From contig WION01000082.1 of the NCBI GenBank assembly GCA_015039365.1, positions 120,122-184,121 of the forward strand: DNA of 64,000 nucleotides, read 5' to 3'. The stretch is from Amanita rubescens (taxonomy: Eukaryota > Basidiomycota > Agaricomycetes > Agaricales > Amanitaceae). The notes beneath the pieces are model-generated. The model worked only from the letters and a program-made list of their open reading frames with translations, was not told the DNA's origin and searched no databases. The translations under genes and the position numbers were made by a program. Positions 4,608 through 43,196 of the stretch are shown piece by piece. How positions within the stretch are numbered: position 1 is the first letter of the stretch; every line of letters begins with the position of its first letter.

Positions 4608-7600
4608 CTAGGAGAGCAACTTGGCAATCTCTGACCATGCTACATATGCTGCCGCCAACGATGTGTCGTCGTCTTTATCTTGACTTTCTGCAAGCATCCA
4701 ATGATAATTGGAAATCCAAGATGCCCAAGATTCCATTGCGAAGCGTAAGGTACCGTAAACCTTGCTTGTTTCCGCTAGATTGATGCTAGCGCCTTGGGGC
4801 CGTAACAGATTCGAAACCTCTTTTACCCATGTCGTGTGCAGATGATCAGGCCGCGTAGGCTCTACTAATTCATAATCCATCCCAGGGGAATATCGCGTGA
4901 CAATATTAGGATAATGACTCCGCAAGGTCTCGCAGACTTTGTCGGCAACTTCACGCAACATCTGCGAGTCTTCGCTGTTCTTGATTGAGAACTGGATTAT
5001 CTGTCTGAATGCGACCCATGAAATACGCCATTGACCTTCAACGTCATTTGCATTCAAAACGGGGCCCATTTTAACAGCTAGGTGTAAAGGAGTAGCATTT
5101 TCATTGTCGGTTGCGTCCACTATTGCACCATGTTGTACAAGAGCACTGAAGATGGTTAGGTCACAGCGAAAGCACGCCGCAATGTGTAATGGGGTCCGGT
5201 CACTTTGGTTTGTGGCGTTGACATTAGAATCGTGATTGGCAAGCAAGCATTTGATAGTGCATGCATGATCATCACTTTCTTGGAGAGGGAATCGGATCAA
5301 CGACGAATCTGGAGTCATATGTGCAATCGCCAGGTGTATTGGTGTGTCATAGTGATCGTTACGGGCGATAATTGATGCTCCTCGTTGCAGCAATAACTTC
5401 ACTGCGAATGCATTCGCATTTTTAGCGGCGATGTGCAAGGGAGTTTCGTTTGCATCGTCTCGGGATTCAATATCTGCTCCACGTTCCAATAAAATGCGTA
5501 ATATCTGCTTGTGCTCTTCTGCACTTGATCCTTGACATTCAGGACCTGTGAATCGCCTCTTAAAGATATACGCAGGGGCAGCGGAAGCCAGGTGTAGGGG
5601 TGTACGTGAAAATGCATCTCGAGCGTTGATATCAACTTCGCCGCTCTGCAGCAGCGCAGATATTGATGACAAAGCATGCTCGGGCTCGGTCAGCATCAGT
5701 ATTAGATGCAAAGGTGTCCGGCCTGCCCTGTCCCGGGCATTTACATTTGCACCCGCTTTTACAAGTCGTTGAATGATTGTCGGTGCCTTTGCAGATTTAG
5801 AGATGGCAATATGGAGAGCCGTATCGCCCTGTCTACTGAGACTGTTGACGTCAATTTTGCCCAGTAGGCAATCCATCACGGCAAGGCAACTCGGTATTCT
5901 GCCAACTGCAGCGTGTAGGGTGTTTAAGCCTCTATAATTTTCCGCCATCAGCTCAGACTTACTGAACTGGTGTAACATCATAGGAAGATTAAACCAGACA
6001 GCAAGATGGACGCAGTCAAGGTGTACCACGTGTTCTCCGATACCAGACGCTCCAAATTTTCCCAGTTGTTTCTTGTACAAATAACACCATCCCTCGAGCG
6101 TGGCTGAGCCTGAAGCAAAAAAGTGACAGAAATCTGCTGCCAATGTGTCAGTTTCAGAGGCCCGGATATGGTCTAGGCATCCGATGACAGCATATTTTGT
6201 GAAGGGATGATCAGAGGCGTGAGAAAGGACTTCTCGTGGGTAATGTGCAAGTTTACATTTGAGATACATTAAACAGAGCCTAGCGAGGGCGGCATTCACA
6301 ACTTGTCTAGTACTAGTACTGGATGGATGGTGTTCACATCTTGTGAGGTCCCCTAGTGCCATTAAGCCAAAGTGGTTGCCGAGTGGAATGTTGGTGAAAG
6401 TGCTGTGAACACTGGCAGGCATGAGGAAGTTGGGTTGATTCTGCTTATCTCTTTGGATGCAAACAACTTGAAAATGTGAACCAACATCAGTGAACTTGCC
6501 TATTCCTGCAATGTCAAAATCCAGTTGCCAATCTTGCATTTCAGCCATTGCTACAGCATCTTCCAGTTCTGGAATTGTCATGGGTCTCACAGCCCATTGG
6601 ACTATGGGAAGGATATATTTGAATTTTTCCCATGAATAGTCTGCATACATTGACTGCTCAGCTTGGAGTTGGAATAGTAGATGATCCATCTTTGATGATA
6701 TGCAGTTGACAAAGTTTCTAATCTGTTCCTCTGCCCGTAGCTTTTGCAACTGTAGCAATTGATGGCTCAGTAGCCAGGGGAAGCTATTATCATGAAATGA
6801 ACATGCTGCTAGCCTAATTTAGGATTGAAATGGCACTCACCTCCTCTGGGCACCTGAAGTTAATGTATCCAGAATCTCCAGTGCTAGCTTCGGGTTCCGG
6901 ACTTTAATTTCTTTAATGTTCATTCGAATGAATTGGCATACATCAGCCCCAATATCTGCAGAACTGATTGCAAGTTGATTGTAGTCTGAGCACCTCTCCT
7001 GCTTCCTGTATGTGGATGCTAGAGTGTCTGGGTGTTGTGGTCCAAGCTTTTCTTTCCTTGCTTCCATGACCAGTACCTCCAACTTCTCTGCCTCATACCA
7101 CCTCTCCTGTTCCCTGTATGTGCGTGATAGACTAGCCATGCTGGTAAGAGTGTCTGGGTGATGTGATCCAAGCTTTTCTTTCCTTGCCTCCATGACTTCT
7201 ACCTCTAGCTTCTCTGCCTCATCCCACTTCTCCTGCTTCCTGTATGTGGATGTTAGATTAGCTATGCTGGTAAGAGTGTCTGGGTGGTGTGATCCAAGCT
7301 TTTCTTTCCTTGCCTCCATGACTTCTACCTCCAGTTTCTCTGCCTCATCCCACCTCCCCTGGATCCTGTATGTGGATGCTAGATTAGCCATGCTGTTCAG
7401 AGTGTCTGGGTGATGTGATCCAAGCCTTTCTTTGCATGCCTCCATGACTTCTACTTCCAGCTTCTCTGCCTCATCCCACTTCCCCTGGTTCCTGTATGTG
7501 GATGCTAGATTAGCCATGCTGGTAAGAGTGTTTGGGTGATGTGATCCAAGCTTTTCTTTGCTTGCTTTCACGACTTCAATATCCAGCTTCTCTGCCACAT

Positions 7601-10600
7601 CCCACCTCCCCTGGATCCAGTATGTGGATGCTAGATTAGCCATGCTGGTAAGAGTATCTGGGTGCTGTGATCCAAGCTTTTCTTTCCTTGCCTCCATGAC
7701 TTCTACCTCCAGCCTATTTGCCTTGTCCCATCTCCCCTGGCACTTGTATGTGGATGCTAGATTAGCTACACTGGTAAGAGTGTCTGGGTGGTGTGATCCA
7801 AGCTTATCTTGCCTTGCTTTCATGACTTCTACCTGAAGCTTCTCTGCTTTATCCCACCTCCCCTGCTTCCTGTATGTGGAGGCTAGATTAGCCATGCTGG
7901 TAAGAGTGTCTGGGTGATGTGATCCAAGCTTTTCTTTCCTTGCCTCCATGACTTCTACCTCTAGCTTCTCTGCCTCATCCCACCTCCCCTGGTAACTGTA
8001 TGTGGATGCTAGATTAGCCATGCTGGTAAGGGTGTCTGGGTGGTGTGATCCAAGCTTTTCTTTGCTTGCTTCCATGACTTCTACCTCAAGCTTCTCTGCC
8101 TCATCCCACCTCCCCTGGTTCCTGTATGTGGATGCTAGATTACCCATGCTGGTAAGAGTGTCTGGGTGCTGTGATCCAAGCTTTTCCTTCCTAGCTTCCA
8201 TGACTTCTACCTCAAGCTTCTCTGCCTCATCCCACCTCCCCTGGTTCCTGTATGTGGATGCTAAATTACCCATGCTGGTAAGAGTGTCTGGGTGCTGTGA
8301 TCCAAGCTTTTCCTTCTTAGCTTCCATGACTTCTATGTCCAGCTTCTCTGCCTCATCCCATCTCCCCTGGCACCTGTATGTGGATGCTAGATTAGCTACA
8401 GTGATAAGAGTATCTGGGTGCTGTGATCTAAGCTTTTCTTTGCTTGCCTCCATGACTTCTACCTGAAGCTTCTCTGCCTCATCCCACCTCCCCTGCTTCC
8501 TGTACGTGGAGGCTAGATTAGCCATGCTGGTAAGAGTGTCTGGGTGATGTGATCCAAGCTTTTCTTTCCTTGCCTCCATGACTTCTACCTGAAGCTTCTC
8601 TGCCTCATCCCACCTCCCCTGGTAACTGTATGTGGATGCTAGATTAGCCATGCTGGTAAGGGTGTCTGGGTGGTGTGATCCAAGCTTTTCTTTGCTTGCC
8701 TCCATGACTTCTACCTGAAGCTTCTCTGCCTCATCCCACCTCCCCTGGTTCCTGTATGTGGATGCTAAATTACCCATGCTGGTAAGAGTGTCTGGGTGCT
8801 GTGATCCAAGCTTTTCCTTCCTAGCTTCCATGACTTCTATGTCCAGCTTCTCTGCCTCATCCCATCTCCCCTGGCACCTGTATGTGGATGCTAGATTAGC
8901 TACAGTGATAAGAGTATCTGGGTGCTGTGATCCAAGCTTTTCTTTCCTTGCTTTCATGACTTCTACCCCAAGCTTCTCTGCCTCATCCCACTTCCCCTGG
9001 TAACTGTATGTGGATGCTAAATTACCCATGCTGGTAAGAGTGTCTGGATGCTGTGATCCAAGCTTCTCTTTCCTTGCCTCCATGACTTCTACATCCAGCT
9101 TCTCTGCCACATCCCACCTCCCCTGGATCCTGTATGTGGATGATAGATTAGCCATGCTGTTAAGAGTGTCTGGGTGGTGTGATCCAAGCTTTTCTTTCCT
9201 TGCCTCCATGACTTCTACCTCCAGCTTCTCTGCCTCATCCCAACTCCCCTGCTTTCTGTATGTGGATGCTAGATTAGCCATGCTATCTAGAACAAATGGA
9301 TGTTTTGGTGCAAGATTTGCTTTCCTTCTTTCAAGCATCCACATTGTTAGCTTTTCCAATTCATTCCAACTCCCAATATGATCATATACAAGTGAAAATC
9401 GACCACATTCATCATCATAGTAAAAATTATTTAGATTCAGCTGTGCTGCCTGATTATTGATTGTTCTTATGTGTGGTGTGAGCAACCCACAATATTCATA
9501 ATTGTCAATCTTATAGTCCAACTCCACAGAACAAGCTACAAATGCCTTTGTCATAAGAACCTGCTGAGTAATTTCCATCTTTGGAATTCTATTCCTGCTC
9601 CAAGAATGCACTAACGGGTGAACTGAATAATGTGTTCCACTGCTCTTAATGAGGGAAAATGACAGCAGCACTTGAATTCCTAAATGAAATTTCATTTTAT
9701 TCCATTCTCCCATTTCATCCAAGAACAAGACCTTAGGATTTAAGATTGTTATTGAAAGTGGGAGACCATGTTCCTTTTCTTCATCAATGTTTCTCTTCTT
9801 ATAGTTCTCTGCAGCATTTTTGAACAACTCTGCTGGTATATTCTCATGATGCAAAAAGGCAAATATCTGATGTAGAGTAATAGCACTCTCAGCTGCCATA
9901 GCTTTAGGATCTTTTTTTTGTGCAGCTCTTCCTTCAATTTCTTTCATTGAGATTTCCCAAGTTCCATAGGTGCAGGATCCATAATCAGATGCTCCTTTAA
10001 ATAAAGGATTAGACATTAATTGATCATGATTCTTGGCATATAATTCCATGTAATCATCAAGGGGGCATTTACAAGTTAGCATATATGCCCCAGCTTGGTC
10101 AATTGCAAGTGGAATCCCTCCCAGCTTTGAAATAAGTTGCTTGGCCACAGCTTGGATATTCTCTGATGTGTAATTTAGCCTGGCTGATTTTGATAGTAGA
10201 GATAATGCTTCTTCTTCTCCCATTTCAAGAACCTCCATTGACTTTTCTGTGATTCTCTTCAGTTCCAAATTCCTGCTTGTTATCAAGATATTTCCCCCAT
10301 TTCCAGGAGGGAGGAACTTTTCTACTATTTGGTATCCTCCATCTGCATTATCATATATCATCAACCAATTGAACTTTTTAGAAATCCACATTAGAACAGA
10401 TGCAGCTGGAGAGGCAGCTTCAGCAATGCCACTATTTGCTTGAGCAATCTTCCTGAGTGTGAGATCAATAGTACTTGCTGAAGAAGCATCAATCCAAAAT
10501 ATGTCAGAAAATCTACATACTCAATCATCTTATGTAGTTATGTAAAGTGTTTAGTGGCACTCACAGTGTTTCACTTTCTTCAACAAATTTGAGGCAAATT

Positions 10601-14196: not shown

Positions 14197-17100
14197 CTTG
14201 CATTCATCACATCTATCTGGAGTTTCTCTGCCTCATCCCACCTTCCTTGATTCCTGTATGTTGATGCCAGGTTATCCATGCTGGTGAGAGTGGATGGGTG
14301 GTCTGATCCAAGCTTTGTGCCCCTTGCCTTCATTACCTCCAACCCAAGCTTCTCTGCCTCATCCCACCTTTCCTGTCTCCCATATGTTGATGCCAAATTG
14401 GCCATGCTGGTCAGGGTGTGTGGGTGGTCCGATCCAAGCTTTGTGTTGAATGCATTCATCACATCTATGTCAAGCTTTTCTGCCTCATCCCACCTTCCCT
14501 GATTCCTATATGTTGTTGCCAAATTGGCCATGCTGGTGAGAGTGTCTGGGTGGTCTGATCCAAGCTTTGTTTTGAATATGTTCATGACATCCATCTGAAG
14601 CTTCTCTGCCTCACTCCACCTTTTCTGATTTGAGTATGTTGATGCCAAATTGGCCATGGTACTGAGAGTAGATGGATGGTCTGATCCAAGCTTTGTTTTG
14701 AATGCAGTCATTACATCCATCTCAAGCTTCTCTGCCTCATCCCACCTTCCCTGATTCCTGTATGTTGATGCCAAATTGGCCATGCTGGTGAGAGTGTCTG
14801 GGTGGTCTGAGCCAAGCTTTGTTTTTCTTGCATTCATGACATCCATCTGAAGCTTCTCTGCCTCATCCCACCTTCCCTGATTCCAGTATGTTGATGCCAA
14901 ACTATCCATGCTGGCAAGAGTGTCTGGGTGGTCTGATCCAAGCTTTGCTTTGAATCCATTCATTACATCCATCTCAAGCTTCTCTGCCTCACCCCACCTT
15001 CCCTGATTCCTGTATGTTGATGCCAGATTAGCCATGCTGGTGAGAGTGTCTGGGTGGCCTGATCCAAGCTTTGTTTTTCTTGCACTCATCACATGCATCT
15101 GAAGCTTCTCTGCCTCATCCCACCTTCCCTGATTCCAGTATGTAGATGCCAAACTGGCTATGCTGGTGAGAGTGTCTGGGTGATCTGATCCAAGCTTTAT
15201 TTTGAATGCATTCATCACATTCATCTCAAGCTTCTCTGCCTCATCCCACCTTCCCTGATTCTCATATGTTAATGCCAAATTAGCCATACTAGTGAGAGTG
15301 TCTGGGTGGTCTGATCCAAGCTTTGTGTTGAATGTATTCATCACATCCATCTCAAGCTTTTCTGCCTCATCCCACTTTCCCTGATTCCTGTATGTTGAAG
15401 CCAAATTGCCCATACTGGTGAGAGTGGATGGGTGGTCTGATCCAAGCTTTGTTTTGAAAGCATTCATCACATCCATCTGCAGTGTCTCTGCCTCATCCCA
15501 CCTTCCCTGATTCCAATATGTTGCTGCCAAGTTGGCCATGCTGGTGAGAGTGTCTGGGTGGTCTGATCCAAGCTTTATTTTGGATACATTCATCACATCT
15601 ATCTCAAGCTTCTCTGCCTCATCCCACCTTCCCTGATTCCAGTATGTTGAAGCCAAATTGGCCATGCTGGTGAGAGTGTCTGGGTGGTCTAGTCCAAGCT
15701 TTATTTTGAGTGCATTCATCACATCCATGTCAAGCTTCTCTGCCTCATCCCACCTTCCCTGATTCCTGTATGATGATGCCAAATTGCCCATACTGGTGAT
15801 ACTGGATAGGTCATCTGATCCTAGCCCCATTTGGAGTCCATTCACCACATCCATGTCAAGCTTTTCTGCCTTATCCCACTTTCCCTGATTCCTATATGTT
15901 GATGCCAGATGGGACATAGTGGTGAGAGTGTCTTTGTGGTCTGATCCAAACTTTGATTTTCTTGCATTCATAACATCCATCTGAAGCTTCTCTGCCTCAT
16001 CCCACCTTCCCTGATTCCAGTATGCCATTGCCAAATTGGCCATGCTGGTGAGAGTGTCTGGGTGGTCTGATCCAAGCTTTGTTTTTCTTTGATGAACTAC
16101 AACATGTAACAATTGTTCCCCCTCATCCCAGCTTGCAGCACGATCAAATACAAATGTAAATCTTGCATGTTCATCATCATAATACCTGCTGTTCAATTCT
16201 AATCCCAATCCATGCAAAATATTTGACCTAATGTGTGGTGCAAGTGATTGACAGAATTCATAATTATCAGAATACCAGTCAGGAGCTATTGAACAGGATA
16301 ACAGTGCTCTTGCTCTGTAAAAGTGATCAGTTACTTCTGCTTTTGGTATGCAGTTCCTACTCCAAGCATTTACTAGTAGGTGCATGGAATACAGGTGATT
16401 ATGACTTCTGACAAGAGAGAATGAGAGTAAAACCTGGATGCCCTGCAGAAACTTTAATTTATCCCACTCCCCATTCCCTATGAACACAGTTTCATCATCC
16501 AGCAAACTCAATGATGATGAAAGATAGACATATTCCTCAATATGTCTTTTCACATAGTTCTCAGCAGCATTTTTGAATAATTCTTGTGGTATATTAGTAT
16601 GATCTAAGAAAGCAAAGATCCTCAAGAGCTTGATGGCACTTTGTGCTCCAACAGATTCCTGCAAATTATCCTTTGCAGCTATATCCTCCATCTTTTTCAT
16701 GGAAATGTCCCATGTCCCATATGTAGATGTCCCATAATCTGAAGCACCTTCAAATCCTGGAGCACTCTGCATTAACTTGTCCTTGTATCTTGTGTACAAT
16801 TCCAAATAACCATTAATGCTGCCACCACAGAAATGCATGTATGCTCCTGCTTGGTCAATGGCAAGAGGGATTCCATCCAATTGTGACACAAGCTGCTGGG
16901 CCAGATTATATATATCATCATCTGTGCCATCAAGCATGGCTGACTTCAAAAGCAAGGAAATAGCATCTTCATCTTCCATGCCATGAACCTCCATTGAGTT
17001 CTTGCTCAATACAAACTTCTTCAATGCAATATTCCTAGATGTTATCATAACATTTCCTCCATTTCCTGGTGGGAGGAACTTCTCAACTACTGAGTAATGT

Positions 17101-30399: not shown

Positions 30400-31399
30400 T
30401 GAGCGGCGGTCGTCCCTAGGAAGATGTCTGCTTTAGCACGTCTCATATCTCAATCAACGGTAGTACGTACTTAGTTCATGTATAAGAAAGAAGTGGCAAA
30501 CGTGATAGTTCGACGCTGAGCGCGTCAATTGAACAGTTGGAGCGGAGGATTAGTAAGACCTGGCACTATTCGGAAGGCAGTGACATAATGCACGCGTGAC
30601 CTCTAGACGTCCCAGGGATAATCGATAATCGATAGCAACTGTAGTTACAGAGTTTGGGCGCGATGGTGGGGATGATTATAACTTGTGAGTCTGCCAATCG
30701 CAGGAAAGATGGCAGCCTCACCTTCGTAAGTGTAACGACTGTCTGGACATCCTGTGTCTTGCCATTGTGGCATATATTCCAGCTTGGGATCACGGTGATG
30801 ACCGGAGTGGAGCGTTGGCGATGAATTGCCCCTACTTAGGTAGACGCAAGTGGCAAGCCCAGGGTTGCCTAATGGAGAAGTATCCAAACATGTACGACTG
30901 GGCAATGATCAGTTTCGGGGGTCACTATTGTGCCACGCCGCCCTCTCGCTTCTTTGACCAAACCCCACCATTTCCTCCCACTCACTGTCCGAGTCCTGCA
31001 CGCTCTCAACTCCGATTGACCAAACACAAGTATTTGTTATCTGCTAGTCACAACGGTCACACGTGATTGCCTGGACTACTGCTCGAGCCCGCTTATTGCC
31101 TTGCTGGTATGTTGAGCTATACAAACTGACATTGCATTTATGCCAGTATTCTTATTGATCCTGGACAACCATTCATTACCTTAGAGATAATTGCTTTAGC
31201 ACACTGCCTGATTCAGGATTCTCAAGTCACACTCTAGTACTCTAGTAGTACAGCCTGTACAGGTACTCCGACTTTCTCAGTCTCACATCCTTTTCTGCTG
31301 AGCTCAGCATGATCATCAGTCTTGCCTTGCTCCATAATCAACCACTTCATTACTAGTAATGGCAGACACCACCAGTGGACTTTCATTGAGTGATCCAAT
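30400..31399. other. Intergenic, no gene recognised
   Basis: Promoter-side sequence of the deaminase gene on the left and the GTPase on the right. At about 31050, GGTCACACGTGATTG is loosely similar to the TGACGTG-type elements of the NLR genes. Base composition changes near 31080 from CpG-containing to CpG-poor. Confidence 0.4.
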
Positions 31400-34300
31400 A
31401 TGACTGTGTTGGCATCCTCATTATCTGACTGGTACATATTAGGTACAGATGAGACACATGTTAAAATGCTCAGGGAACAATACCTATGCCAACATTTTTG
31501 CATCATTGTCATAGGGAGGGCTAATGCAGGCAAGAGAACCATCCTTGAGAAGGTTTGTGGTGTAGCAAAGGGGACAAAGCCCATGATATATGACAAGGAT
31601 GGTAAGTCAGGCTGAACATTGTGCTTCTATGTATTCAATTCCATGTAGGTGAAGAACTGGAGGCATCTGCAACTCATTTGATGCCATCAATTCAGGTGGA
31701 TTTAATGATAATGTATGAATGTGCCTACTCATTAATAACAGAGAGGCCTACATGATATTGAACATCAGATTACATATCCTGGGTGTAACTTTATCTTCCA
31801 TGACTCTCAGGGATTTGAATCTGGTTCTACTGATGAATTGGAGCTTGCTTGGAATTTTATTGAGAAGAGTTCTGCAGAAACTGAGCTACAAAATCAGTTG
31901 CATGCAATTTGGTATCTTGATTTCTCCATTTACATGACTATCTGACTAGGCTCCTGATAGGTACTGCATACCCATGGACAGCCCTCGTCCCATTCTACCT
32001 GCAGAACTTGAATTTTTCAATAAAGGGACAGGCAGTGGTAAGTCCTAATAAATTCATTTCTCATCTTGTTTGTTTTACAGAGATTATTTACCCTTGACTA
32101 TTGTTCTTCCCCCCTTTCCATTGGCTGAATTACTAAGCACTAATCCATAGTGTACTGACTAGTAAATTACAGTTCCTTTGGTGGTTATATTTACCAAGTT
32201 TGATGGTCAAATAGCCTGTCAATTTGTCAATTTGACTGATGCAAACTTGAAGGATGAAGATAAGTGGGAGACAGCCAGGGAGATTGCTGAAATCACTTTT
32301 CAGAAAGTTTATCTTCCTAAAGTATTGGATGCTAAATATCCTCCCAAGGCATATGTGCGATTGGAAGGTGAGAATGACAAATTTTAAATGAAAACAGTGT
32401 AGCATTGTTTCATAGACATGGATCTACCAGAGAACAATTGTGTTGAATTAACTCAGCAAACTGCTGATGCAATAAATGATGACACTATGCATCAGCTGTT
32501 TGTTTCAACACAGATGAATAACCTTGACCTTTGTGTAACATCTGCACTTGAGTGAGGGCCACATTCAAAATGTCACTCACTACCATTGACATTGTTTTTC
32601 TGATCAGCAGTCTTGACCCATAATCTACAGGAAGTGAGTGACATTAATTTTGATTTTTATTATCTCATGATGCATAACATGATCAACAGCAAGTGAGTAA
32701 ATCTATCATTGTGAGCAGACTTGTGAATCCAGTCTCTTGTGGACAGGGAGTGAGTGATGCAATGCTGCCTCACACCACATCTGACCTGCTTAAAGAAAGT
32801 AAGCAGCATTGATAGTTTTGCAGTTTATCAGACATATGTAACTCAATGAACAACAGAATGTTGGTGACATACTTTTATATAAAAGAGTCTCAACAAATTT
32901 CATTGGATTAATAATAGCAAGTAAGTGACATTTCCTTTCTGTCTTCTTACAAACAACACTACATCTTGTCTCAAAACAGCATTGAACAGGCAGTAAATAT
33001 TTCTCCTTTTCAAAACCTCTTCACAAGCTACTGCAAAACAAACAGGGTGTATGTGATACTTTTGTGATATGTGAATTTATCATATGAAATACTAAGGAGA
33101 AAAGAGAGTTAGTGGCATTGTTCTCTTTCTTCCCAATTCATTATGCTAATTTCATTCTAAAAGGAAGTGAGTGATGCTGACCACTCTGCTGCAAGATGAT
33201 TTGGACAATGCTTTTTTTGTTCTACAGCTTGTGAGTGATGTTCTAATTTTTGTGAAAAGCAGTAAAATCACATCTTTTCCTCTACACATAGGAGGTTAGC
33301 AGCATATCATGCTGGTTTAGTGGTTCAAAAGATGTCCTTATCAAAATTTTGCATATGGCCAACAGTTTGTGAGTAACATTACAAACATTTCTGGAAATCT
33401 GCTCCATGTATTTTTCTCCTATAACAACAGTATGTGAGTGACATTGAAGATTTTTGTGATATCTTTTCCTATGTCCAACAGGGAGTGAGTGACATTGCGC
33501 ATTTTGTGAATGGTAATCTCATCACATCCTTTCCTATGACCAATAGGTTGTGAGCAACATCATGCACTTAGTGAAAGGCAGTCTGATCACATCTTTTCCT
33601 ATGACAAACAGAATGTGAGTGATATTCACATTTTGTGAAAGGCACTCTCTTCACATCTTTTCTTATGACCAACAGGGAGTGGGTGACATTCCACATATTG
33701 TGAAAAACAGCCACATGACAACTTTTCCATTTACCAACAGGGAGTGGGTGACATTGCACATTTTTTGAAAGACTGTCTCATCACATCTTTTCCTATGACC
33801 AACTGTCAGGGTGTGAGTAACATTCCACATTGTGTGGAAGGCAGTCTCATCACATATTTTTCTATGACCAACAGGGAGTAAGTGACATTACACATTGTGT
33901 GACAGACAGTCTCATCACACCTTTTCCTATGACCAACAGTGTGTAAGTGATATTGCACATTTTGTGTAAGGCAGTTAGTTTCATCATATCCTCAGTCTGT
34001 GAGTGACATTGCACATATTTGTGAAAGGCAGTCTCAGTATGATGAACAGCTTGTGAGTGACATTGACATTGTGTGAAATGCAGTCTCATCCATCTTTTCC
34101 TATGACCAACAGGGAGTGAGTGACATTGAACCTTGGTGAAAGGCAGAGTCTTTTCCTACTATGGCCTACAGAAAGTAAGTACATTGCACATTTTGTGACA
34201 GGTAGTCTTATCACATCTATGACCAACAGTGAGTTGGTGACATTGCACATCCTGTGAAAGGCAGTCTCATCACATCTTTTCCTGACAAACAGCTTGTGAG

Positions 34301-35572
34301 TGACATTCCACATTTTGTGAAGGCAGTCTCATCACATCTTTTCCTATGACCAACAGAAAGTGAGTGACTTGAACATTTGTGAAAGGCAGCCTCATTAGTC
34401 TTTTCCCATGACCAACAGTCTGTGAGAGTGACATTGCACATGTTATGAAAGGGAGTTTCATCACAACTTTTCCTATGCCCAACAGCTTATGAGTAGTAAC
34501 TTTGCACATTTTGTGAAAGGCATCTCACAACCTTTCCATGACCAACACTGGGGAGTGAGTGACATTGCTCATTTTGTGCAAGCAGTCTCATCACATCTTT
34601 TCCTATGACCATCAGCATGTGAGTGACATTGCTCATTTTGTGAAGGGTAGTCACAACTCACATCTTTCATATGACCAACAGATTGTGGGTGACATTCCAC
34701 ATTTTGTGAAAGGCCATCTTATTACATCTTTTTTTATGTATAACTAGCAGCAAGTGAGTGACATTGTGAAATGCTGTGTCATCACATCTTTTTGATGACC
34801 AACAGGGGGTGAGTGGCATTGCATATTTGTGACAGGCACTCTCATCACATCTTTTCCTATGACCAACAGCTTGTGCATGACATTGCAAACTTCCTGACCT
34901 GCATTCTCAGCATACCTCAATTTACATTACATTCTATGTATATTTCAGAAAGTAAGCATGTTTTCCATGTCTTTCTTTTACATTACTTAACATTATAGAT
35001 TGTAAAATTTCATTTCAGCTCCCACATATGATTGTTTCTCTTACTTATGACTTTCTTTATTTTCCAGGTGAGTGATCCTGGTTCATGAGTCATTTATTTT
35101 CACCTCAATTTGCATGCTAGTGTGTAGGTCTGGTGACATATTAGATATTTTACTCCTTCTCATAAGCAGCATGAACTTTTCTCCATGTTTGGGGGGATGC
35201 AGGCAAAGTTTGCAGGCAAGGTATTTTTGTCCCTTTTGGGGGGGGGATAGTGCATAACTCATGTCATTGCAACAAGCTTACTGATTGCCAAGTCTTAGTT
35301 TGTAAATTATTCCTTTTCATTGCATGCATTTATGCTTAAACTTTGAAGCAATTGTTATCATTGCCAAGCTATCCTTTCGGATCAATAAACCATTTCTACC
35401 ATCAGTCACAGAAGCCTTGGATCAATACAAGCAAAAGGGCTATGTTCAGAAACTCAAGACCAATATTCAAGTTATTCCTGACTTGATGGACGAGTCTGAT
35501 GTTGATGAAGATGATGTTGTCACATTACTCTATAGGCAGGTGACTTGCATTGATGGTTTGTACTTTGTTTAG
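31400..35572 (+). CDS. Small GTPase with C-terminal membrane anchor, interrupted by a one-codon-exon array
   Basis: Exons 31400-31601, 31649-31695, 31742-31911, 31961-32037, 32173-32367 and 32416-32551 encode a G domain: P-loop VIGRANAGKRT, switch region RGLHDIE, Walker B/G3-like FIFHDSQGFESG, QNQLHAIWYCIPMD and the G4-like FTKFD. This is the fungal family of AIG1/Ras-like single-domain GTPases. Exon 6 can end at the GTGAGG donor at 32552 in phase 2; otherwise it meets TGA at 32553-32555. From 32631 to 35001 about 39 triplets are each flanked by AG and GT. Concatenated in phase 2 they stay open, then a 5-nt exon (35216-35220) restores phase 1 for exon 35349-35572. That last exon encodes AIVIIAKLSFRINKPFLPS and EALDQYKQKGYVQKLK, the hydrophobic anchor and tail seen in this family. 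The full model is 390 residues. The G-domain exons are solid; the array exons are inference needing RNA. A shorter product ending at 32555 is the null model. Confidence 0.68.
32552..35215 (+). repeat. Tandem array of intron-like units separated by 3-nt micro-exons
   Basis: In the homogeneous core (33482-34872) a 62-nt unit starts GTGAGTGACATTGCAC, has a TCATCACATCTTTTCCTATG pyrimidine tract and ends ACCAACAG; then exactly 3 nt precede the next GTGAGT. About 22 core units are present. More divergent units with the same AG-NNN-GT spacing extend from 32631 to 35001. The triplets differ (for example GGA, CTT, AAA, AAT, TGT, TCT, GTT, CAA) while the flanks are conserved. One unit has lost both ends (AT donor at 34499, CACTGG acceptor at 34547-34552). 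At 35067/35068 CCAG directly abuts GTGAGT, a zero-length exon. The unit lacks palindromes and diverse 30-bp spacers, so it is not CRISPR. Confidence 0.85.
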
Positions 35573-36566
35573 TCATGCACTACTAGCTTATGAACAATTT
35601 AAGGCAGGGTGAAACACATATCCAGGTGATTTATTGGCTGCATTGCCTTTGCATTCAGATCATATTTATTTTTACAGATCACTCTTCATACATATGCATT
35701 CCCTTGGTTGTTTAAGCACCTGTCTCAAAATTTCTTTCCAATGTGGACATATACATGTACAGGGATGGGTCAGAAGTAAAAGTCATCCATAGAATTGTAG
35801 CTACTTCATGAAATAGCTTCCCCCTGCAAGTGTAGTGATGTAGCCACTTGTTGACTTGAAAGAAGTCTATATACTCCCTTGCCCCCTTCAAGCACCTTAA
35901 TGTACACTTCACAGCCATCTGATTGTAAGGTTTTGAAATATTAATCTTATAAAGATTTTATCTTTCCTGGGATGTTATGGGGTCAATCAAAAGGTATTAG
36001 TATCACATATGTACATACCACTTACCAACCCTGCAATAGCTAGGTCCAATTTTTTGAGATATTGAATCTTTAATATTGGCCAGTTGTGACACATGTTGTG
36101 ACTTTGGTATGGGTTACAGCATGGGACCACCTGTTAAGCCCTATTTGACCTTTAATTCTGAAAAAACCTCAGGTCTGCTGCTAATTCCATCACTTTACCC
36201 TCCCCCACACTTCCTTGGGGAATCCAGGCAGACTCCATGGAGTCCTGAGGATTCCACATGGATTCCAGGCAAAATGTCCCAAAAAGGAAATTTTCACCTC
36301 ACAAACTGTTACATTCATTCACACAGCCTCCAGGTAATCATTGTCTTAGTGTTATGTACATAGTCTATGTCACCTTATACATATATGTCATTGAGAGTAA
36401 AAGCACTGTCTTTTTCCTTGAATCAGTCAACTTGGGTATAACAGAAAGTAAGTATTTCAGTGTACCCTTGCTTAACATTTGATATTGTGCTCATGCAGTT
36501 TCAGAGGGTCAGGCTCACCCTATCAGGCAAACAGAATTTACAGGAATGACAACATATCATTTGAAA
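35573..36566. other. CpG-poor intergenic region with possible relics
   Basis: Contains short repeats around GATTCCAGG/GGATTCCA (36215-36270) and one more isolated AG-AAA-GT site, ACAG-AAA-GTAAG at 36441-36452, like the units of the GTPase array. No gene recognised apart from a weak retroelement-like stretch at 35712-35918. Confidence 0.4.
35712..35918 (-). pseudogene. Possible Copia-type reverse transcriptase relic
   Basis: A 68-codon open stretch contains MAVKCTL..LKGAREYIDFFQ and FTSDPSLYMYMST, which loosely follow the order VK.AFL.G.L.E.IYM.QP ... GF..SDPSLY of Copia reverse transcriptases. The spacing is too short and no catalytic YVDD is visible. Treat as a weak suggestion. Confidence 0.3.
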
Positions 36567-36900
36567 CTAATGTACAATAGCCTGGGTCATGTGAAAATTC
36601 AAATCAAGAACAGAAAATATCAATGCAAGATGATCCAGGTCTTGGAACTCATTGTCCCCCAGTGCCCTCAAATCAGGGAAAGAGTATTTCCACCTAAATA
36701 TGTAATAGATAAACCATAGTGCACCACTTTTTTGCATTATATTAGCAATGGAAGCATGAATTTCCAAAAGCTCTGGATCAGGTAATGCCACAACTGGCAA
36801 TGTGGTTGGCTGTTTGAGTTGTTGCCTGGCAGAAGATGGATGTTGAATTTTTGGATGCTTGTAAGAATGGTCCTCAAATTTGATGATATCAGACCCAGAG

Positions 36901-37160
36901 TGTTAGGAGGTGATCCCTGACACAATCACTAAGACACTCGAGACTCGAACGCGAATGAGAGAATGAGACTAGATTGAGTCTATGGACGACAGAAACAATT
37001 CGTAAGGCTAAGGAATACATAGGATAGACTTCAGTATATATACTCTGACTCGTTACTCCCACGCTGTCGTTCCGCGGAATCCTTATGTAAGCGTGGGAAC
37101 TTCTTGTAATAAAAAGAAAAGAAAAGGAAAAGAAAAGATAATGAAATATCGACCGTTACA
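36901..37160 (-). repeat. 3' LTR of the Gypsy element
   Basis: 260 bp, TG...CA ends, nearly identical to 42938-43196. Contains TATATATA (about 37037-37044). Next to it at 37161-37175 is the polypurine tract on the element strand. Confidence 0.95.
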
Positions 37161-42937: not shown

Positions 42938-43196
42938 TGTTAGGAGGTGATCCCTGACACAATCACTAAGACACTCGAGACTCGAACGCGAATGAGAGAA
43001 TGAGACTAGATTGAGTCTATGGACGACAGAAACAATCGTAAGGCTAAGGAATACATAGGTAGACTTCAGTATATATACTCTGACTCGTTACTCCCACGCT
43101 GTCGTTCCGCGGAATCCTTATGTAAGCGTGGGAACTTCTTGTAAATAAAAAGAAAAGAAAAGGAAAAGAAAAGATAATGAAATATCGACCGTTACA
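42938..43196 (-). repeat. 5' LTR of the Gypsy element
   Basis: 259 bp. On the element strand a TATATATA (about 43070-43077) lies some 25 nt before AGCCTTACGATT (43045-43034), a good place for the transcript start in a self-priming element. Confidence 0.93.

Follow-up and report, generated by a model that had tools for sequence, protein, structure and literature searches.

Codon-by-codon splicing predicted for tandem intron arrays in a GTPase gene family of Amanita rubescens

Results

In this study, a GTPase gene was analyzed in a 64,000-nucleotide (nt) stretch of the Amanita rubescens genome, hereafter the window, which belongs to contig C768. The G domain of this gene is followed on the plus strand by a tandem array of short introns separated by single codons, and the pre-mRNAs of the gene family are very probably spliced codon by codon, in predicted runs of up to ~86, into a locus-specific and likely disordered protein segment. 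The G domain is encoded by the P-loop exon at 31443–31601 (GRANAGKR in the window copy; 5′ boundary approximate), GEELEASATHLMPSIQ at 31649–31695, RGLHDIEHQITYPG...LHAIW at 31742–31911, YCIPMDSPRPILPAELEFFNKGTGS at 31961–32037, VPLVVIFTKFDGQI...AYVRLE at 32173–32367, and DMDLPENNCVEL...CVTSAL plus GA at 32416–32551, with the donor GTGAGG directly 3′ at 32552. The deposited A. rubescens protein of this gene, F5887DRAFT_892641 (P0001), lacks the exon at 31649–31695, reads past the donor GTGAGG and stops at the TGA at 32553–32555. Behind the array lie a 51-nt exon, HELFSMFGGMQAKFAGK (35170–35220), a 25-nt exon homologous to PTDCQVLVS (35277–35301), and the terminal exon IVIIAKLSFRINKPFLPSVTEALDQYKQKGY...FV with stop TAG (35349–35572), which is matched by the proteins P0046 and P0121; the junctions of the 51- and 25-nt exons agree with the full models of the paralogues C769 and C79.

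The initial annotation had counted about 39 repeats of AG, 3 nt and GT at 32631–35001, and the recount agreed, with 37 intact and 2 broken units in register. The triplets run GAA CAA GGA AAA AAT CAA GCA GGT AGA GAA CTT GAG TTT TAT GGA GTT AAT GGA GGA GGT GGA TGT TCT CTT GGA AAA TGA CTT AAA TCT ... CAT ATT CAA GGG CTT AAA ATT. An older part of 14 one-codon exons (GAA ... TAT) with introns of 46–71 nt occupies 32631–33433, and the core at 33482–34872 holds 21 intact one-codon units (GGA GTT AAT ... GGG CTT), including a TGA triplet at 34230–34232, and the 2 broken units, one near 34487 (CTT followed by ATGAGT; donor lost) and one near 34550 (acceptor lost). The final two one-codon exons are AAA at 34949–34951 and ATT at 34999–35001. 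The near-uniform 62-nt introns first described for the window core were not recovered, as only 3 window introns have ≤6 mismatches to the 62-nt family consensus, and Tandem Repeats Finder (TRF) gave 68–71% matches with 10–11% indels; uniformity is a trait of younger paralogues.

Comparison with the closest paralogue, C773, suggests that the window copy is probably a decayed, non-functional family member. It is ~404 nt shorter, the deletion falling at approximately 32595/32596, where C773 has a 404-nt insertion at position 615 of L001; the missing part in C773 comprises exons of 76, 12, 3, and 30 nt together with the one-codon exons for W and F. At the position of a CGA triplet in C773 the window copy reads TGA, and C768 and C773 alike have lost one donor, near CTT, and one acceptor, near CACTGG. 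Between these two loci, codons and introns diverge alike (6/120 vs. 71/2778 nt), without codon excess. For this copy alone, we consider it probable that the gene ends at the TGA at 32553–32555, as P0001 does, and that the array behind is a decaying relic; the deletion, the TGA triplet, the lost donor and acceptor, and the even divergence all speak for this, whereas 37 of the 39 units keep both splice dinucleotides. The earlier proposal of a GTPase gene split into one-codon exons is upheld for the gene family, in which transcript-like proteins join the codons in order, but not for the window copy, which is apparently broken.

A search of the 75.7-Mb genome with the core-array DNA returned at least 137 matches, and 35 loci, the window's included, were read; C114, C363, and C61, whose coordinates and scores resemble those of C311 and C146, were regarded as near copies of these and are outside the 35. 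Most of the 35 loci have in common, on the 5′ side, one-codon exons whose codons are largely conserved (W-F-E-Q-G-K-K-E-T-D-R-E-I-K-Y), with introns of characteristic lengths between them; the core that follows has a codon string particular to the locus or its close copies. Runs of 10 and 14 were found in six near-duplicate loci (L052–L057) that represent two further GTPase paralogue types. A genome scan for GTRAGT-N44-72-AG-NNN-GTRAGT-N44-72-AG-NNN-GTRAGT gave 2292 + 1979 = 4,271 matches, compared with 0 + 2 for the backwards pattern. The two places followed up, on C1 with a run of 47 and on C2 with a run of 44 (41 being 3 nt), adjoin GTPase exons. All examined loci, these two included, belong to one GTPase family, few of the 4,271 scan matches having been examined. 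A further GTPase of the family lies on C768 outside the window (94082–94555, minus strand), for which P0002 is the candidate deposited protein.

Exon lengths were assayed in chains that allowed 1–12 nt and preferred none, run on the 35 loci and summed over 17 author-chosen loci with diverged introns. In the best chains, 705 of 732 exons were exactly 3 nt, the remainder being 20 of 6 nt, two of 12, three of 2, one of 10, and one of 11 nt, while the antisense and reversed strings of the same loci gave 4/34 and 41/76 exons of 3 nt, respectively. Similarly, 452 of 469 exons between core introns were exactly 3 nt (16 loci). Models built with a 3-nt exon bonus were excluded as proof of length. The triplets are one-codon exons in phase 0. 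The full models of C769 (458 amino acids, 67 exons, 54 of them 3 nt, 5.4 kb) and C79 (493 amino acids, 100 exons, 87 of them 3 nt, 7.5 kb, one GC donor) keep an open frame all the way between ATG and stop, the array lying in phase 0, and that of C79 has 99 introns and a run of 86 one-codon exons. Both models admitted only 3-nt exons in the run, and related proteins guided the choice of the long-exon junctions.

Some units of L036 (C190) and L037 (C229) have 6-nt exons, CAATAT or CAATCT, that is, two codons and not one. GC donors occur behind some small exons, in L058 near 1011 and 2000 (TGG followed by GCAAGT, and GGG followed by GCAAGT) and as GCAGGT in C79. C13 has a 4-nt exon with a 2-nt exon immediately behind it, and some locus models extend into chance sites past the array. 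Splicing of the window copy across its deletion would put the array in phase 2, with the first ~30 codons stop-free when followed by hand. A manual phase-2 reading of the array that started at the last G-domain exon of the window copy, plausible at first, was dropped because extra exons in the intact paralogues bring the array into phase 0, and the aimed mutation of AAC-like codons considered along with it was abandoned too.

Proteins encoded by 1.1–1.9 kb Joint Genome Institute (JGI) contigs of related mushrooms read into or through the array, and the contigs are likely spliced transcripts, given unbroken reading frames that are nearly contig-long. P0039 reads EMANKQLSEAQ-WFEHGKKDTDKQIVYDG and P0007 reads TNEQLSETK-WFEKGKKESDREIEYDG, while the A. 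rubescens counterpart has an exon MANEQLSEAQ and then W, F, E, Q, G, K, K, E, T, D, R, E, I, K, and Y singly; both proteins carry W-F-E-x-G-K-K-x-x-D-x-x-I-x-Y-D-G in the genomic order. P0042 is the strongest case for joined codons. The 47 one-codon exons of C1 encode FESADNAAAKERQYYDDVHAGYGYYGGEKISEKERDKRKDFVEREIL, and 39 of the 47 residues aligned with P0042 are identical, with two gaps and a score of 203, compared with ≤67 in 1000 shuffles. A GGG exon with a GC donor accounts for one gap, and at the other A. rubescens offers a 4-nt exon.

The segment varies among these proteins: P0044 and P0046 are nearly identical on either side of it and differ greatly within it, and in P0090, another family protein from JGI, the stretch in its place is much shorter. 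A search with residues 262–461 of P0046 found 4 proteins, all from short JGI contigs and 0 from genome annotation. In the AlphaFold model of P0046, the array segment lies within residues 297–357 at a predicted local distance difference test (pLDDT) score <50, while the G domain before it and the helices after it are modelled with confidence; the joined segment is likely disordered, and it is locus-specific.

Among synonymous codons of the array, those ending in AG are avoided. In the same two genes, E, Q, and K codons ended in AG vs. AA at 2:34 in one-codon exons and 84:81 in long exons (p = 1.3e-7); an AG-ending codon directly before GT would itself act as an acceptor. None of the 452 core codons is a stop; independence of the three positions, an assumption that does not hold, would predict ~25.

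Most of the introns that separate one-codon exons measure 46–72 nt, with the majority bases GTGAGTGA at the donor and TATGACCAACAG at the end (1785 introns). In 522 core introns from 16 loci, 1.1% of sites differ from the 62-nt consensus, while the core codons differ from the commonest base at 52, 64, and 38% of first, second, and third positions. The exact consensus intron is present in 304 copies in the 35-locus set and precedes 23 codon kinds. Introns with ≤6 mismatches to the consensus entered the 522-intron and nine-locus figures, and those with ≤8 the exact-copy and codon-kind count. Six close pairs, eight further pairs, and nine young loci were chosen by the authors, and the near-duplicates C79/C667/C239, C769/C228/C254, and C437/C33/C456 were included in the length, intron, and codon counts where applicable.

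In pairs of the nine young loci drawn from different subfamilies, the older 5′ part differed by 6.6–8.7% and the core introns by 0.2–1.4%, while codons differed by 0.44–0.74 per nt; within subfamilies, the older part and the core introns differed about equally little. As the introns are alike across subfamilies and the codons are not, the introns appear to have spread or been homogenised without carrying the codons along. The codon vs. intron differences of close pairs were 9/105 vs. 3/2232 nt (C769/C254), 4/105 vs. 2/2232 (C769/C228), 5/105 vs. 3/2232 (C228/C254), and 12/88 vs. 4/1929 (C82/C599). C769 and C228 differ by ATC/CGA and GGA/CGA in neighbouring units, and C254 additionally by GAA/CGA, CTT/CTA, and GCA/CTA, the introns being barely changed. 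Between C79 and C667, entire units differ. The codons of young arrays come from a small common set, and no 6-codon word with at least 3 kinds was common to loci other than close copies in the 35-locus set. The pair C82/C604 (36/123 vs. 18/2607) was left out of the rates, its unit register being uncertain.

Elsewhere in the window, two long tandem arrays of 126-bp period are located at 7021–9284 (18 copies) and 14199–16085 (15 copies); on the minus strand they read like what we take to be tetratricopeptide repeats. The same short A/G repeat, with identical TRF statistics, occurs at 37112–37146 and 43148–43182, 6 kb apart, and possibly marks a duplicated segment. A tRNA scan of the whole window detected no tRNA, and an Rfam scan of 31000–36600 gave no match.

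Discussion

Introns this short, with the donor and end bases given above, suit intron definition. Exons of 3 nt are too small for exon definition, and the introns would therefore be removed one after another. The simplest order would start at the 5′ side, so that with every removal the next donor comes to lie behind an exon of normal size. With almost all exons being single codons, the frame would be kept whichever later acceptor a donor is joined to. To account for alike introns beside different codons, we favour a combination of exchange between arrays and selection acting on the codons: the exchange would homogenise the introns, while selection would keep or renew codon variety, and the resulting segment is a candidate recognition or interaction surface.

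Several observations weigh against this interpretation. The splicing is deduced from genome and protein sequences, the transcript status of the JGI contigs is itself inferred, and these contigs stem from relatives, whereas the modelled loci are those of A. rubescens. In P0085, a deposited A. rubescens model, the C-terminal exons follow the G domain with the segment absent, so that in some genes the array may be skipped, or the model may be wrong. Owing to their constraints, the C769 and C79 models test the frame only and not exon length. Stop codons make up 8 of 1961 three-nt model exons, and exons of 1, 2, or 4 nt occur in the arrays of C13, C749, and C254, which are possibly broken; C254, from which many of the codon changes originate, has a broken frame in its model. 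The 522-intron and nine-locus figures take in only introns already close to the consensus. Further, C79/C667, C79/C239, and C667/C239 are without any codon substitution, codon excess is lacking in the old pairs C190/C229 (10/297 vs. 197/5948) and C456/C437 (0/216 vs. 55/4767), and it is absent from C437/C33 as well (0/219 vs. 8/4456); in C311/C134 (11/130 vs. 120/2885) and C209/C56 (31/129 vs. 257/2888) the codon excess is two- to three-fold. The fold evidence for function, given below, is weak.

A codon exchange through the identical introns, with single codons as cassettes, or else a codon-directed process of change, is possible but rather doubtful as the source of codon variety. The codon swaps among C769, C228, and C254 with hardly any intron change fit it, as do the small common codon set of young arrays and the lack of shared codon words between loci that are not close copies. 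However, such swaps were seen in one trio of close copies only, in which C254 is apparently broken, and the trio C79/C667/C239 has none; the codons would also have to escape homogenisation. A wider version, which we regard as unlikely, would be a codon-cassette diversity system, in which the identical introns serve as exchange arms, single codons move between GTPase loci, and ordered, possibly skipping splicing yields an open-ended recognition repertoire in immunity-like GTPases. If true, it would be a counterpart, at one-codon resolution, to animal receptor diversity.

Intron invasion, that is, insertion of a near-identical introner-like element at every codon boundary of a once-continuous exon, had been suggested in the initial annotation and now seems improbable. 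Identical introns beside unrelated codons at many loci would agree with it, and introner-like elements are on record in fungi (PMC4457414). However, every codon boundary would have to have been hit, old arrays with diverged introns show the same 3-nt spacing, C79 and C667 differ by whole units, and the loci looked at all belong to one gene family. Moreover, a genome search for the array stretch in one uninterrupted piece, with all 80 candidates scored, hit only pieces that match longer exons, and the comparison between loci fits homogenisation of introns in arrays grown by units.

Finally, a non-coding minisatellite carrying AG-NNN-GT by chance, inside one long intron or past the gene end, is hardly credible: its unit is tandemly repeated, and deposited models end before the array (P0001) or join across it (P0085), but a plain repeat would have copied the triplet too, an expectation raised at the outset and contradicted by the 23 codon kinds before one intron sequence, old arrays keep 3-nt exons despite varying intron length, and the triplets spell protein present in transcript-like sequences and avoid AG endings.

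If confirmed by RNA, the codon-by-codon splicing predicted here would take the limit of exon size to long runs, such as the 86 one-codon exons among 99 introns in the 493-residue C79 model. The arrays would offer a natural test case for spliceosome action on 3-nt exons, for ordered splicing, and for the uses of introns. Introns that are homogenised while the adjoining codons stay different are the opposite of the usual expectation. The family would also be a variable GTPase family missed by annotation, as all four matches to the P0046 query came from JGI contigs.

Comparison with known systems

Against the Pfam family MMR_HSR1 (PF01926; gathering cut-off 21.9 bits), P0001 scored 23.8 and P0046 19.3, and P0007 and P0121 had no match. 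In a fold search, immunity-related GTPase (IRG) chains ranked first at a root-mean-square deviation (rmsd) of 5.6–8.3 Å, with rows for the single-domain EngB and septin close behind. Immunity-related and dynamin-like GTPases are the nearest by this search; membership in the IRG family is not claimed, given these rmsd values and the closeness of EngB and septin.

The initial annotation knew of no described gene so organised, and in the full-text literature, preprints and most subscription papers aside, we likewise found no such runs; what came up was confined to tiny exons in isolation and to genes built of small symmetrical exons. Human RPS24 is said to contain an isolated tiny exon. Exons of 1 nt are described in plants (PMC8831610) and two 3-nt exons in a fungal lipS gene (PMC5639578). 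These isolated exons show that spliceosomes can use exons of 1–3 nt, and they are single cases or small groups, unlike the long runs in A. rubescens.

In schistosome micro-exon genes (MEGs), most of the coding region is divided into very small symmetrical exons, in-frame variation has been proposed, and the proteins evolve fast (PMC4350168). The arrays resemble MEGs in carrying a coding stretch in tiny exons that are multiples of 3 nt (the 3- and 6-nt exons counted above). They differ from MEGs in that nearly every exon is one codon, the runs reach ~86, and the introns of young arrays (~50–75 nt) are near-identical.

Introner-like elements of fungi are near-identical introns found at many genome places, described as dispersed in unrelated genes and, within the fungi, from Pezizomycotina (PMC4457414 and PMC9860276). 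The arrays are like them in having near-identical introns at many loci (the 522 introns of 16 loci and the 304 exact copies). Unlike the elements so described, the introns here stand in tandem, one codon apart, in one basidiomycete gene family.

Transcription activator-like (TAL) effectors and the repeats of fungal NOD-like receptors (NLRs) are built of near-identical DNA units with variety at a few codons per unit. In these repeats the constant part is coding, whereas in the A. rubescens arrays the constant part is the intron.

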